From assembly GCA_949285785.1 (NCBI GenBank), contig CASEAG010000023.1, positions 1 to 34,693 of the forward strand: 34,693 nucleotides of DNA, written 5' to 3'. The DNA is from an uncultured Spirochaetales bacterium. GTDB lineage: Bacteria > Spirochaetota > Spirochaetia > Sphaerochaetales > Sphaerochaetaceae. A program made the translations under genes and the position numbers. Below the pieces are notes generated by a model, which was not told where the DNA came from, made no database searches, and saw nothing but the letters and a program-made list of their open reading frames with translations. Positions 6,804-19,141 of this stretch are shown here, piece after piece; within the stretch, counting starts at the first letter, position 1, and the number at the start of each line of letters is the position of its first letter.

Positions 6804-8328
6804 GGCCGACATAGACACGTCGCTGCCGCTGATCAGCATCATAGGGCGTCCCAACGTCGGCAAGAGCACTCTGTTCAACAGGCTCATCGGAAGACGTAGG
6901 GCCATCACCGATCCCACGCCGGGTGTCACGCGCGATCCGATTCCCGAGAGATGGCTTCTTGGCAATCACCCGGTCACGCTCGTGGACAGCGGAGGCATAA
7001 AGGTCGAGAAGGACCGCATGGACGACCTGGTCGCCCAGAAGAGCCTGTCGCTTCTCGAGCAGAGCGACCTGATCATCTTCATGATGGACTGCACAGAGGT
7101 CAACGGCGAGGACCAGATGCTGCTCAAGCAGCTGAGGCCATACACCGACAAGCTCGTGCTGGTCGTGAACAAGATCGACGATGTCACCAGGGACGACCTG
7201 ATCTGGAACTTCTACAACTTCGGCTATCAGAGAGTGGTTGGGATATCGGCGGAGCACGGCCTGGGGATCGAGGAGCTCGAGGACACGCTGCTGGGCATGC
7301 TTTCCCTCGAGAGGGCGGACGAGCCGCCCGAGGAGCCGGAGACCATACGCCTTGCGATTCTTGGCAAGCCGAACACGGGCAAGAGCACGCTGACGAATCT
7401 GCTCACAGGACGCGATGTGTCCATCGTCAGCGACATCGCAGGCACTACGCGCGATGTGATGAGGGCTACTTTCACTTACAAGGGAACCGACTACACCGTT
7501 CTGGATACCGCCGGCATCAGGCGCAAAAGCAAGGTCGACGAGGATGTGGAGTACTATTCGGTCAACCGCGCCATCAAGACTATCGACGAGGCGGATGTCG
7601 TCTTCCTCATGGTCGATGTGAAGGAGGGGCTGTCCGATCAGGACAAGAAGATCGCCTCCCTGATCGTGCGGCGTGGCAAGGGCATCATCATAGTGCTGAA
7701 CAAGATCGACCTGCTCAAGGGCATCGCGAACGAGCTTGATGCTATCAAGGACCGTGTCAGATTCCTGTTCCCTGTACTCTCGTTCGCCCCGATAGTGCCG
7801 ATAGCCGCGATAAGCGGAGACGAGGTCGGCAGGCTCCTGGACACGGCATGGATGGTCTGGAAGCAGCTCAACAGGAGAGTCGACACGTCTTCGCTGAACG
7901 AGAGTCTACGTTCCTGGTGCAGTGCATACGAGCCTCCACGTGGAGCGTCGGGGCATTACAAGGTGCTGTATGCCACACAGGTCTCGACGACTCCGGTGCG
8001 CTTCCTGCTGTTCGTCAACAGGATAAAGGACTTCCCCGAGACATACCTGAACTACCTGAAGAACTGCATGAGGAAGGATCTTGGTCTGGCGAACATCCCG
8101 ATAGAGATATCCCTGAGGGAGAGACGGCGCAATCCCTCACTCAACGAGCGCGGTCCGGCCAGGAGCGAGGTCGAAGTGGATCGGGTCATGAAGGCTTCGG
8201 CTTCCTCCAGGACACAGAAGGCGAAGGGCATCAGCCGCAAGCCGGGAGGCAAGGCCCGCCTTGGCAAGGAACGTGAGAGGGCGGAGCAGATCGTGCGCAA
8301 TTCGCGTCAGAAGAAGAGGGGGAGATGA
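6778..8328 (+). CDS. der: Ribosome-assembly GTPase Der (EngA)
   Basis: Essential tandem-domain GTPase for 50S subunit assembly. The 516-residue protein has two G domains: the first with GRPNVGKST at 23-31 and NKID near 131, the second with GKPNTGKST at 196-204, DTAGIRRKSK from about 243 and NKID near 308. A C-terminal KH-like domain follows at about 370-455. The last 60 or so residues form an Arg/Lys-rich tail ending QKKRGR. In the first domain the G3 region reads DSGG, as usual in Der. CTGGAG precedes the ATG, which lies inside the end of ptsI (26-bp overlap). Confidence 0.97.
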   Translation: MQRLEITNRADIDTSLPLISIIGRPNVGKSTLFNRLIGRRRAITDPTPGVTRDPIPERWLLGNHPVTLVDSGGIKVEKDRMDDLVAQKSLSLLEQSDLIIFMMDCTEVNGEDQMLLKQLRPYTDKLVLVVNKIDDVTRDDLIWNFYNFGYQRVVGISAEHGLGIEELEDTLLGMLSLERADEPPEEPETIRLAILGKPNTGKSTLTNLLTGRDVSIVSDIAGTTRDVMRATFTYKGTDYTVLDTAGIRRKSKVDEDVEYYSVNRAIKTIDEADVVFLMVDVKEGLSDQDKKIASLIVRRGKGIIIVLNKIDLLKGIANELDAIKDRVRFLFPVLSFAPIVPIAAISGDEVGRLLDTAWMVWKQLNRRVDTSSLNESLRSWCSAYEPPRGASGHYKVLYATQVSTTPVRFLLFVNRIKDFPETYLNYLKNCMRKDLGLANIPIEISLRERRRNPSLNERGPARSEVEVDRVMKASASSRTQKAKGISRKPGGKARLGKERERAEQIVRNSRQKKRGR

Positions 8329-14939: not shown

Positions 14940-15686
14940 ATGGGCGAGAAGATCTACGGACATCATGCGATAGAGGAGGCCTTGAAGAAGGCCTTTGCAG
15001 GCAGCACGCTTTACGTGATGAGGAACGGCGGACCGGCCATCGCCGGACTCGAGAGAAAGGCCATGCTCACCGGCAAGGTGGCCGTGAAGAAGCTGTCGAA
15101 GGCGGAGCTGGACAGGATGCTGCCCGGCTGCGATGTACGTGGGGCGATCCTCGACATGGGTGGACCTCGTCGTGGCGCATCCCATCTGAAGGAGACTTCC
15201 GTGAAGGGCTTCTGCCAGTCCCTCCAGGAGGGGCAGGGTGCTCTCGTCCTGATCCTCGATGGAATCACGGACCCGCATAACCTCGGAGCGGTCCTGCGTT
15301 CGGCGGACCAGTTCGGCGTGGATCTCGTCATCATACCCGAGCGTCGAAGCGTCCAGGCCAACGAGACCGTGGTGAAGGTCTCGTCCGGAGCCGCCCAGTA
15401 TGTCACGCTGGCGGTCGTCACCAACATCGTACGCGAGATCGAGACTCTCAAGGAGCATGGCTTCTGGGTGTACGGCGCAGACATGAACGGGGATCCGTCC
15501 TATGACATGGACTATGCCCATCGCAGCGCGATAGTCATGGGAAGCGAGGGGGATGGCATAAGCCAGCTGGTCAGGAAGAGGTGCGACATGATGACCAGCA
15601 TCCCGATGAGAGGGCACATAGACTCGCTCAACGTCTCCGTTGCGACCGGAATCCTGCTGTACGAGTTCAGAAGGAAGGAGCGCTAG
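14940..15686 (+). CDS. rlmB: 23S rRNA 2'-O-methyltransferase RlmB (SPOUT/TrmH family)
   Basis: SAM-dependent ribose methyltransferase; RlmB modifies G2251 of 23S rRNA in E. coli. The 248-residue protein has an N-terminal RNA-binding substrate domain and the trefoil-knot motifs in order: DPHNLGAVLRSADQFG near 111-126, IVMGSEGDGIS near 198-208, and IPMRGHIDSLNVSVATGILLYE near the end. MGEKIYGHHAIEEAL is the usual RlmB beginning. The TAG stop shares the palindrome CTAG with the stop of the convergent PurD-like gene. A TrmH-type tRNA methyltransferase is possible but less likely given length and N-terminus. Confidence 0.88.
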   Translation: MGEKIYGHHAIEEALKKAFAGSTLYVMRNGGPAIAGLERKAMLTGKVAVKKLSKAELDRMLPGCDVRGAILDMGGPRRGASHLKETSVKGFCQSLQEGQGALVLILDGITDPHNLGAVLRSADQFGVDLVIIPERRSVQANETVVKVSSGAAQYVTLAVVTNIVREIETLKEHGFWVYGADMNGDPSYDMDYAHRSAIVMGSEGDGISQLVRKRCDMMTSIPMRGHIDSLNVSVATGILLYEFRRKER

Positions 15687-16960
15687 TTCTCGTTCTGTAT
15701 CATGAAGCGGTTGCCTATGTCCTCGCGGTGCCAGGCTCCCTGGAACCTGAATGCGCTGACATACCTGTAGGCCTGCTCGTTCGCGCTGTTAATCGTGTCC
15801 CCGCGCCCGACGATGGTGAAGCATCGTCCACCGGCGGTGACCAGATCGTCATGGCTGTCGCCTTTCACCGCTCCTGTGAAGATGCATGGCATCGTGCTGA
15901 GCGAGTTGTACAGGAGAATCGGGTCGATCGGGTCGACCTTACGCCCCGTGACCGGGTTCATCGGATAGTTCTCGCTGGCGACGACCACCGCAACCGTGCT
16001 GCCATCCCTGAGCTGCAGCTGCTGACTGCCGAGGCGGTCGTCCTTCATCGCGAGAAGCAGCTCGACGATGTCGTTGCGGATGAGCGGGACCATGGCCTGT
16101 GTCGCAGGATCGTTGAAGCGGACATGATAATCGACCACCACCGGGATGTTGTCCTCGTTCACTATTATTGATATCGTGAGCACTCCCTTGTAGGACAGGC
16201 CCTCCACCTTCATCGCATATATCGTCGGCTCTATGACCATCTCGCGTGTCGCCTCGACGATCTCGCTGGACATGGTTATGGGGCATACTGAACCCATTCC
16301 GCCTGTCGGGATGCCGCCTTCTTCACTGGTGTACATGTAGTCGGAAGTGATGGGGAGGGCGAAATAGCCGTTGTTGTCGACGAGTATAGTGGCAGTGAGA
16401 TGTATGCCCTTGATATGCTCTTCCAGCAGTACCGGACCGCGCTCGAAGAGCCTGTCCGCGAACAATAGCAGCGCTTCGCTGTCACATGAGTCCAGCATGA
16501 TCCGGCTGGGTGCAAGGGTGTTGGACTTGAGGACGAAGTGCTCCTCCTTGTGACGGGAGAGGAACCTTTCCAGCGACTGCCTGTTCTCGAAAAGGTTGCG
16601 TCTGGGGGTGGGGATGTTGTGCCGATCTGTGAATGCACGGGCGAAGTTCCTGTCCGCCTCCAGCTTGAGGGCCTTCTTCGGCGCGCCGAAGGTCGCGATG
16701 CCGCGCTCGTTGAGATAGTCGATGACGCCGGTGAAGAGAGGAGCCTCGGTGCCGATGAACACGAAGTCGATGGCGTTCTCCAGACATGCCTCGTAGACCT
16801 CGACGGGATCGGCCGGGTCTATCGAGCTCAGATTCGTCGCGAAACGGCCGGTTGCGACATTGCCCGGGGCTATGAAGAGATCTCCCAGGAAATTGCTCTG
16901 GTTGAACCACCATGCAATCGCATGGTCCTTCGCTCCGGATCCGAGAATCAGCACTCGCAT
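15683..16960 (-). CDS. Divergent PurD-like ATP-grasp protein
   Basis: 425-residue protein with the overall layout of phosphoribosylamine-glycine ligase (PurD): N-terminal GSGAKDHAIAWWF near 7-19, FIGTEAPLFTGVIDYL, FGAPKKALKLEADRNFARAF, GIPTGGMGSVCP, and YKGVLTISIIV. Several signature residues are altered. The ATP-binding KADGLAAGKG region reads KSNTLAPSR, and the metal-binding EFNxRFGDPE segment reads DYHVRFNDPAT. It has AGGAGG seven bases before the ATG and its own promoter. No other purine gene is nearby. It may use a different substrate or be a weak or inactive homologue, so no symbol is given. Confidence 0.75.
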   Translation of the reverse strand: MRVLILGSGAKDHAIAWWFNQSNFLGDLFIAPGNVATGRFATNLSSIDPADPVEVYEACLENAIDFVFIGTEAPLFTGVIDYLNERGIATFGAPKKALKLEADRNFARAFTDRHNIPTPRRNLFENRQSLERFLSRHKEEHFVLKSNTLAPSRIMLDSCDSEALLLFADRLFERGPVLLEEHIKGIHLTATILVDNNGYFALPITSDYMYTSEEGGIPTGGMGSVCPITMSSEIVEATREMVIEPTIYAMKVEGLSYKGVLTISIIVNEDNIPVVVDYHVRFNDPATQAMVPLIRNDIVELLLAMKDDRLGSQQLQLRDGSTVAVVVASENYPMNPVTGRKVDPIDPILLYNSLSTMPCIFTGAVKGDSHDDLVTAGGRCFTIVGRGDTINSANEQAYRYVSAFRFQGAWHREDIGNRFMIQNEN

Positions 16961-17009
16961 GGATTTCCTCCTTGTGTCGTGAGAGGCGTCGCAATGGCCT
17001 TCGCCTCAT

Positions 17010-17038
17010 ATTCTAAGACCGCGGAGATCAAAACTCAA
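17010..17038 (-). promoter_or_regulatory. Promoter of the PurD-like gene
   Basis: On the minus strand: TTGAGT (17038-17033), a 17-bp spacer and TAGAAT (17015-17010). Transcription would begin near 17003. A 6-bp hairpin (GAGGCG/CGCCTC, 17007-16983) would then form at the 5' end of the mRNA, ahead of the AGGAGG site. Confidence 0.7.
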
Positions 17039-17050
17039 ATGTATTTTCGC

Positions 17051-18022
17051 TCAATGTGGTTCGTCTTCCGTCAGCAGGGAAAGGGCCTTTTCGTAGTCCT
17101 GTCTTGAGGATGCGCTGTTGATCAGGGCCTTGGCCTGTCCGGCCCCTCTGGTCCCCTTGACGTAATGGACCGCATGCTTTCTCATGTCGCGCATGGCGAC
17201 CTGGATGCCGAATGCCTCGACCATATAGTCCAGATGCCTGAGCATGGTCGCGGTCCTCTCCTCCAGCGAAGGCGTCCAGACCTCTCCCGTCTGCAGCTTG
17301 AGCGCCTGGGTGAATATGAAGGGGTTGCCCATGGCTCCTCGGGCGATCATCACCCCGTCGCATCCGGTCTGGGCCATGACGTCTATGGCGTCCTGTGCGC
17401 TGAAGATGTCGCCGGATGCGAATATCCTGACATCGCGATCCTGGAACTTCTCCTTCAGCCTTGCGATGTGGCTCCAGTCCGCCTTGCCGCTGTAGCCCTG
17501 GCTTCTGGTCCGGGCGTGGAGCGTCAGCATCCAGGCCCCCGCATCGGCGGCGGCGTCCGCCACATCCATGTAGTTGATCGACGACGAGTCCCAGCCCAGC
17601 CGGAACTTCACGCTGACAGGGCAGGGGGTGTTGCGCACTAGATGGTCGACTATCCTGAATATCTCGTCCGGCTTCTTCATCAGGGCGCTTCCCGCACCTG
17701 TCTTCACCACTTTGCCGACAGGACAGCCGCAGTTTATGTCGATCATGTCCGGAGCGTACTCCATCAGCCTGTCCACACAGCGGCGGAACGGGTCCAGGGA
17801 AGGGCCGAACAGCTGGGCGATGAGCGTCTGCTCGCCATCAAAACGGGTCAACAGCGATTCCGTGTTGCGGCTGTCCCTTGCAAGGCCCTCGGCGCTTATC
17901 ATCTCCGTGACCGCACCGCCGCAGCCCCACTCATGTGCGATCCGGCGGAACGGGGCGTCCGTGTAGCCGGCAAGCGGCGCGAGGAAGAACGGGGATGTGA
18001 AGGTCGAAGGCTTTGGCATCAT
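17051..18022 (-). CDS. dus: tRNA-dihydrouridine synthase
   Basis: FMN-dependent enzyme that reduces uridines in the tRNA D-loop. The 323-residue TIM-barrel protein shows FLAPLAGYTDAPFRRIA near 13-29, DINCGCPVGKVVKTGAGSALM from about 95 with the catalytic Cys100, VKFRLGWD, and the flavin-binding FASGDIFSAQDA and GVMIARGAMGNPF motifs. It is closest in feel to the DusB type; the exact target uridine cannot be told. Two ATGs are adjacent at the start, and the first lies six bases after a -10 box. It diverges from ricT. Confidence 0.92.
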   Translation of the reverse strand: MMPKPSTFTSPFFLAPLAGYTDAPFRRIAHEWGCGGAVTEMISAEGLARDSRNTESLLTRFDGEQTLIAQLFGPSLDPFRRCVDRLMEYAPDMIDINCGCPVGKVVKTGAGSALMKKPDEIFRIVDHLVRNTPCPVSVKFRLGWDSSSINYMDVADAAADAGAWMLTLHARTRSQGYSGKADWSHIARLKEKFQDRDVRIFASGDIFSAQDAIDVMAQTGCDGVMIARGAMGNPFIFTQALKLQTGEVWTPSLEERTATMLRHLDYMVEAFGIQVAMRDMRKHAVHYVKGTRGAGQAKALINSASSRQDYEKALSLLTEDEPH

Positions 18023-18028
18023 AGGCGC

Positions 18029-18057
18029 CTTCTAGCAGAAAACGCCTCCCGTGTAAA
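18029..18057 (-). promoter_or_regulatory. Promoter of dus
   Basis: On the minus strand: TTTACA (18057-18052), a 17-bp spacer and TAGAAG (18034-18029). Only six bases lie between the -10 and the ATG at 18022, predicting a leaderless message. AAGG overlaps the -10 and so probably is not transcribed. Confidence 0.7.
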
Positions 18058-18060
18058 GCC

Positions 18061-18089
18061 TTGCAAGCAAGGTGCGCTTGTGCTAAGGT
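18061..18089 (+). promoter_or_regulatory. Candidate promoter of ricT
   Basis: TTGCAA at 18061-18066, a 17-bp spacer and TAAGGT at 18084-18089. The ATG at 18098 follows after eight bases, so any leader is at most a few nucleotides. Its -35 lies three bases from that of the divergent dus promoter. Confidence 0.5.
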
Positions 18090-18097
18090 TTTCGCAC

Positions 18098-19141
18098 ATG
18101 GGCAAGAAGAAAGAGTACAGAGGGGATGAATACGCATACGTATATGTCGTTAAGAACCCTTCTTATAACGATATATGTCTGGTGGCCTGGGACAGCGTGC
18201 TGTATGCCGGCACTCCTGTCGTGTACGACACCAGATTCGGCCTGGATCTCGGCTTCATCGTGGCCCCGGCTCCTCAGCCTGACGAACGTTATCAGAGTGG
18301 AGATGCCGAGATCAGGGGTGCCTGCCTGCATTTCGGTTCCATGGAAGATGAGACGGTGGAGGACGATGACGATCCCTCCAGGCCCGAAGTGCATCAGTGC
18401 GAATACTGCATGGGATGCCAGATCTCCAAGGAGCCGCGCAAGGTCCGGGTGACCGGCAACGTCACCTGGTTGGATCATCTGGCCACTCCGTCGGAGATGG
18501 CACGGTACAACGAGAACAGCGCAAAGGAGGAGAGCGCCCTTGTCGTGTGCCGCGAGAAGATCGCGAAGCACAGACTGAACATGAAGCTCATCACCACGCA
18601 TTTCCTCCTGGGCGAGAGCAAGGTCGTGTTCTTCTTCACGGCCGATGAACGCGTCGACTTCCGCGATCTTGTGAAGGATCTGGTGTCCGTGTTCAAGATG
18701 CGCATCGAGTTGCGCCAGGTCGGCGTCAGGGACGAGAGCCGCCTGATCGGCGGTCTGTCCGTCTGCGGGCGTGACTACTGCTGCCATTCGATCACGGACA
18801 AGATGCAGCCGGTCTCAATAAAGATGGCCAAGGAGCAGAACCTCTCCCTCAACTCGATGAAGATCTCCGGGCCGTGCGGCAGACTGCTGTGCTGCCTCGC
18901 ATACGAGTACGACTACTATGTCGAGGAGAAGTCGCGCATGCCCAGCGAGGGCTCCCGCATCAGGATCGACCATGAGCTGTGGAAGGTGAGCGAGGTTAAC
19001 ATCCTCTCCAGACAGGTCATGCTGACCGCCAGTGAGAACCGCACGCTCTATGTCCCGTTCGACGAGTTCTACCTGGATCCCGACGAGGGCAGATGGTGCA
19101 TAGACGAGGACTATCTGGAGGAGCTTTTCAGCTCTGAATGA
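18098..19141 (+). CDS. ricT: PSP1-domain protein, RicT (YaaT) homologue
   Basis: RicT is part of the RicA-RicF-RicT complex, which in Bacillus binds Fe-S clusters and directs RNase Y maturation of operon mRNAs. The 347-residue protein contains the PSP1 core (THFLLGESKVVFFFTADERV, FKMRIELRQVGVRDE, KMAKEQNLSLNSMKISG) and the two conserved cysteine motifs, CGRDYCC (Cys223/228/229) and CGRLLCC (Cys260/265/266). An added CxxCxxC cluster (Cys101, 104, 107) precedes the core. The frame is open far upstream, but that stretch is dus in antisense; the ATG at 18098 fits the homologues and the promoter. RicA and RicF are not in the window. Confidence 0.9.
   Translation: MGKKKEYRGDEYAYVYVVKNPSYNDICLVAWDSVLYAGTPVVYDTRFGLDLGFIVAPAPQPDERYQSGDAEIRGACLHFGSMEDETVEDDDDPSRPEVHQCEYCMGCQISKEPRKVRVTGNVTWLDHLATPSEMARYNENSAKEESALVVCREKIAKHRLNMKLITTHFLLGESKVVFFFTADERVDFRDLVKDLVSVFKMRIELRQVGVRDESRLIGGLSVCGRDYCCHSITDKMQPVSIKMAKEQNLSLNSMKISGPCGRLLCCLAYEYDYYVEEKSRMPSEGSRIRIDHELWKVSEVNILSRQVMLTASENRTLYVPFDEFYLDPDEGRWCIDEDYLEELFSSE

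Follow-up and report, generated by a model that had tools for sequence, protein, structure and literature searches.

A gene in an uncultured Spirochaetales bacterium of the Sphaerochaetaceae encodes a 425-aa protein that has the fold of PurD and a remodelled active site, and this gene, which we call purD', is very probably not the cell's GAR synthetase. The best explanation as a whole, and one that we back with modest confidence, is that purD' is a leftover purD, kept in place and remodelled for another task. The window, that is the whole stretch of 34,693 nt analysed here, contains the following features of interest:

14940-15686, plus strand: SpoU/TrmH-type RNA methyltransferase gene, convergent downstream neighbour with a 4-nt overlap with the end of purD'
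15683-16960, minus strand: purD', PurD-fold protein with a remodelled active site, 425 aa (ORF, profile and family comparison)
16100-16132, minus strand: DYHVRFNDPAT, residues 277-287, where PurD has E[FY]NxRFGDPE[TA] (alignment)
16292-16306, minus strand: TGGMG, residues 219-223, retained (alignment)
16337-16345, minus strand: SDY, residues 206-208, followed by Met209 in the position of Lys214 of A. aeolicus
16502-16528, minus strand: loop KSNTLAPSR, residues 145-153, where PurD has KADGLAAGK; first Lys retained, glycines gone
16736-16753, minus strand: GTEAPL, residues 70-75, where PurD has GPEAPL (alignment)
16919-16942, minus strand: N-domain loop GSGAKDHA, residues 7-14, where PurD has G.GGREHA or G.GAREHA
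16966-16973, minus strand: Shine-Dalgarno sequence AAGGAGGA of purD', read from the sequence, 5 nt 5' of the ATG
17051-18022, minus strand: dusB (Dus family), co-directional upstream neighbour of purD' (ORF and domain)

An earlier note on this DNA had described the gene as a PurD-like ATP-grasp protein with altered motifs, and similarity to the PurD family indeed extends over its whole length; the strong ribosome site that the note had seen is the Shine-Dalgarno sequence listed above. Its view of the gene as standing alone with a promoter of its own did not hold up. That is, dusB lies 90 nt upstream in the same direction, an arrangement that recurs at 44/51 loci, and a scan of positions 15500-18300 gave a single promoter-like match (9/12) where shuffles average 1.3. 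Control by a riboswitch was ruled out, Rfam giving 0 matches above the gathering score in the window.

The GARS N, A and C domains follow one another in order along the full length of the protein, all three over cut-off. TIGR00877, which NCBI treats as an equivalog-domain model with a curated cut-off of 288 bits, matched residues 1-419 at 311.7 bits; seven other Sphaerochaetaceae proteins scored singly reached 298.9-332.1 bits, such that all eight pass, while L086, L087 and the operonic PurD L092 scored 377.9, 367.9 and 458.5 bits, respectively. In an alignment of 28 sequences (A1, leaving out the partial L052, L060 and L061 and the repeat L055), 28/28 members matched this model at E ≤ 0.001, bits being compared with the cut-off for the first member only. 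A PDB sequence search at E ≤ 0.001 returned 11 distinct PurD/GAR synthetase sequences and nothing else. A structure predicted with AlphaFold2 from the window protein plus 27 relatives had a mean pLDDT of 88.3 and a pTM of 0.88, and its top 15 Foldseek matches were PurD structures with TM values (query length) of 0.77-0.89, followed by PurT at 0.68. While PurT and other ATP-grasp enzymes such as biotin carboxylase (1kj8, 3ouz) share the ATP-grasp fold (model TM 0.66-0.68), they are 14-16% identical and fall far behind PurD by both structure and family comparison. Because the protein passes the cut-off and yet is uninformative on purine synthesis, an automatic purD call can mislead metabolic reconstruction of these spirochaetes. 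Among the matches listed in open-access PubMed Central, we found nothing on this family.

The three-domain fold and the length are thus those of PurD (TIGR00877; PDB 2yw2, 3lp8, 1gso), and the active site is not. According to PMC8880213, the contacts of PurD in A. aeolicus numbering are K103, K143, E185, E192 and K214 for ATP, D212, R287 and E292 for glycine, and E100 and K214 for Mg; we mapped these positions via E. coli PurD, in agreement with the 2yw2 alignment. Among 51 purD' sequences (loci and homologues, two contigs being counted twice as L149/L054 and L151/L046), E100, K143 and R287 are kept in all 51 and E185 in 50 (D in one), D212 is D in 36 or E in 15, and K103 is R in 46 or K in 5. 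E192 and K214, in contrast, are kept in none: the former is replaced by P, H, S, A, N, T or G and the latter by M, T, S or V. The glycine-binding E292 is A in 50 sequences and S in one. E283, N285 and G289 have become D, H and N, respectively, in 51/51. We take E283/N285 to be the metal-binding pair of the ATP-grasp site, such that purD' has D/H throughout where a GAR synthetase has E/N. Of the residues expected of a GAR synthetase on these contacts (D212, R287, E292, K143, K214, E185, E192), the set as a whole is thus not found in purD'. The changes that the earlier note had read from the window protein, from KADGLAAGKG to KSNTLAPSR and from EFNxRFGDPE to DYHVRFNDPAT, are confirmed, as is the TGGMG loop that it saw retained; the N-terminal landmarks are kept only in part, with AKDH for GREH and GTEAPL for GPEAPL.

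The altered site is a family trait, not an accident of one genome. Ordinary PurDs do not share it: 13 operonic-type spirochaete PurDs and 19 others are canonical at the compared positions (32/32). The 13 operonic proteins (L089-L101) are the nearest full-length canonical relatives, 32-39% identical to the window protein, and all 13 retain the canonical residues that purD' has given up. The main protein alignment kept 85 rows, without 17 named rows (repeats, partials and L081) and one identical row. With the later addition of G406, whose purD' has S at both G289 and E292, a comparison of 52 purD' sequences with 29 ordinary PurDs (omitting L077-L080 and L067) gave 36 positions fixed alike, 30 fixed solely in PurD and 23 newly fixed, with 12 fixed differently in the two sets (K11, D12, T71, D103, R108, S152, R153, S264, D277, H279, N283 and A286 in the window protein). 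At 12 functional positions of our own choosing, namely the published contacts plus E283, N285 and G289, mean entropy was 0.41 versus 1.39 for the whole protein, a value as low being reached in 3/20000 random sets; the Glu192 position is itself variable (66th percentile of entropy). In most Sphaerochaetaceae outside the window's genus a Lys stands one place after the K214 position (SDYMK, SDYTK or SEYTK). The window's genus has SDYMY, SDYMS, SDYMT or SDYMF and hence no shifted Lys, which weakens the idea of a simple rescue of the lost Lys214.

If purD' made GAR, it should occur with PurF, for PRA, and with the downstream enzymes. We searched 61 genomes, 37 of them Sphaerochaetaceae (f1) including the window's own, and found purD' in 34/37 as a full-length frame without stops, one of these being cut by a contig end. 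Only 13 of the 37 had purF and purM over cut-off (G002, G007, G008, G010, G015, G016, G017, G020, G029, G032, G034, G035 and G036). The same 13 had a purC match, below the family cut-off in three, and 12 of them (all save G016) a purL linker match, with 0/24 for either gene in the others. Nevertheless, purD' is carried by 22 of these 24 pathway-less genomes, the exceptions being G026 and G027, the latter with a very divergent copy only, and the expected co-occurrence is therefore not seen. It is likewise present in 12/13 genomes with purF and purM; it was not found in G034, which has an ordinary purD and in which dusB ends ~200 bases from the contig end. An ordinary purD accompanies the pathway in 12 of the 13 and occurs in 0/24 of the rest. 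In the one exception, G016, purM runs into the contig end and no second purD was found; a weak match there (L081) reads as another kind of ATP-grasp protein and was not counted. As for the checks suggested in the earlier note, the window's genome (95.94% complete) has purD' as its single match, with no second canonical purD, and the rest of the pathway is missing at cut-off level: purM, purC and the purL linker gave no match, and matches to purF and purN fell far below cut-off.

The motif D[YF]HxRxNDP, sought as a DNA signature, picked out 33/36 Sphaerochaetaceae genomes and 0/356 others of the phylum; one of its three misses, G406, does have purD'. Phyla beyond the window's own were covered by a single scan with strict peptide patterns. 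Outside the family, purD' was found in G038 (f3) and G052 (f17). In both, contigs end in pieces of purL, purM and purF, and the search turned up no further purD, such that neither these two genomes nor G016 can be counted as support. Four genomes of a further family (f25) have a PurD relative with a differently altered pocket, plus a second PurD match 34-36% identical to it. Two of the dusB-site proteins there (L184 and L185, from G427 and G428) have lost further pocket motifs, showing ATATAQ (L184) or GDSQSI for GPEAPL and SYHVKFGNPE (L184) or SFHLRFGDPE, in what looks like a second course of remodelling. In G027, a genome of 1.2 Mb, the PurD-like frame L067:3435-4706 is 28% identical to the window protein, lies on another contig than dusB and has an altered site of its own (IKPVVGKGKN, NMKTRFSDPS). 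A contig titled Clostridiales bacterium Firm_16 (L042, LVAV01000102.1) bears a typical Sphaerochaetaceae purD' and is probably misbinned.

A maximum-likelihood tree was built from 47 of the later 90 sequences; in it, 20 purD' proteins from f1, f3 and f17 formed one clade (100/100), which joined three f25 dusB-site proteins with the same support (100/100). Eleven other PurDs, including ordinary Sphaerochaetaceae and f25 PurDs and that of E. coli, formed one group (100/99), and the operonic spirochaete PurDs fell in between; their order and the placement of purD' among them are weak (43/60). A quick tree of 61 of the 85 alignment rows, with three fused proteins trimmed to 440 residues, put the ordinary Sphaerochaetaceae purDs in at least three separate groups, which fits purine genes having been regained more than once in this family. 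Three purD frames (L078, L079 and L080) are 656-659 aa long and have a PurN match later in the same frame, as would be expected if purD and purN are fused in the purine clusters of some Sphaerochaetaceae. Comparing the window with eight members of its genus (Nei-Gojobori), purD' showed dN/dS of 0.057-0.115 in the 6/8 pairs with usable dS, versus 0.134-0.359 for dusB and 0.071-0.166 for trmH (five pairs each); the gene is therefore functional.

How purD' came to lie where it does is suggested by gene order. In other Spirochaetia families the ordinary purD can be the last gene of dusB-purF-purM-purN-purD, beyond which come convergent trmH and dnaJ; this order is complete in L091, L092, L093 and L097, whose operonic PurDs thereby share their chromosomal site with purD'. 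A partial order, with trmH and sometimes also dnaJ beside purD, is seen in L089, L090, L094, L095, L096, L098 and L100; L099 and L101 show no trmH within the stretch taken. Of the seven purD' loci that lack the co-directional dusB directly upstream, one has it reversed (L145), two end within 341 bases upstream (L042, L086) and four (L044, L048, L084, L088) have no dusB in the 1.9-6.0 kb available upstream of purD'. The shared dusB/trmH site would explain the origin of purD': the ancestral operon was presumably dusB-purF-purM-purN-purD, from which purF, purM and purN were deleted and purD remained between dusB and trmH, purD' being its descendant in place. Deletion of purFMN with purD left behind would account most simply for both gene orders. 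Freed from making GAR, purD could then have had its pocket rebuilt and subsequently fixed for a task independent of de novo purine synthesis. The earlier note had remarked on the distance from purine genes; none indeed adjoins purD', and on the best account this is because they were lost from that very site. purD' seems to illustrate clearly how a biosynthetic gene can outlive its pathway in place and be rebuilt, with other stages visible in f25.

Could purD' nonetheless still make GAR through its unusual site, as a spare or in the service of thiamine synthesis or salvage? Its score above the TIGR00877 cut-off and the retained R287, D212 (D or E), K143, E185 and TGGMG speak for this, yet we consider it very unlikely: in the 22/24 pathway-less Sphaerochaetaceae genomes that keep purD', there would be neither PurF-derived PRA to make GAR from nor any use for the product, the genomes that do have the pathway possess another, ordinary purD (12/13), and the glycine-binding Glu292 and the ATP-binding Lys214 and Glu192 are lost. 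That purD' is a decaying relic without function is harder still to believe. The pathway is gone, G026 has no purD' at the dusB site, G027 has only the divergent L067 elsewhere, and these genomes measure 1.2-1.3 Mb; against decay stand the open, full-length frame in 34/37 genomes, a dN/dS under that of dusB and within the trmH range, and strict conservation of the very residues that changed. We reject decay on the strength of the dN/dS values and the conserved pocket.

More serious is the choice between two kinds of new role, which the earlier note had already named as a ligase with a new substrate or a non-catalytic homologue; both readings survive and are favoured by the checks, with function predicted from sequence. 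Placed ahead is an ATP-dependent carboxylate-amine ligase that still uses the ATP-grasp pocket, for which we would give a little less than an even chance; its acid would be other than glycine, since Ala replaces the glycine-holding Glu here. The kept K145, E180, E101, R104 and R281 (window protein) may still permit a nucleotide to bind and an acyl group to be transferred, with D277/H279 as a possible metal pair and R153 in the loop. Ranked after it, and rather doubtful, is a pseudoenzyme in which ATP chemistry is gone and purD' binds a phosphorylated sugar, a nucleotide or another phosphorylated ligand, or a protein partner. Lys214, Glu192 and the loop glycines are absent in 51/51 purD' sequences, which speaks against ATP chemistry; the N-domain is the best-conserved part of purD' (mean top-residue frequency 0.75 versus 0.58-0.67 elsewhere), and the f25 pocket has drifted in other ways, as the L184 motifs illustrate. 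D277, H279, R281, K145 and E101, however, are invariant in 52 sequences from f1, f3 and f17, which would be needless for a mere scaffold. That a new ATP-grasp activity arose by reuse of purD in place after loss of its partners, in Sphaerochaetaceae and two neighbouring families, seems to us not quite as probable as not; if true, databases conceal this activity behind a purD label, and a third family has a form altered in another way. The altered, strictly conserved pocket of purD' offers a direct target for substrate screening.

A lone AICAR transformylase in the window's genome was considered as a partner of purD' and ruled out: the gene adjoins an IMP-cyclohydrolase-like gene, and seven Sphaerochaetaceae genomes with purD' (G021-G025, G028 and G033) have no purH match. 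On contig C30 of that genome (L190:5956-7116 and 7121-7798, both on the minus strand), the AICAR-transformylase-only protein, corresponding to the C-terminal half of PurH, and its IMP-cyclohydrolase-like neighbour (PF07826) stand without the remaining purine pathway, and perhaps, as we presume, recycle AICAR from histidine synthesis. In G001, which has no purF or purM over cut-off, a single 370-aa frame (L191:4653-5765) combines formyltransferase (PF00551) and IMP-cyclohydrolase-like (PF07826) domains and adjoins an AICAR transformylase ORF.
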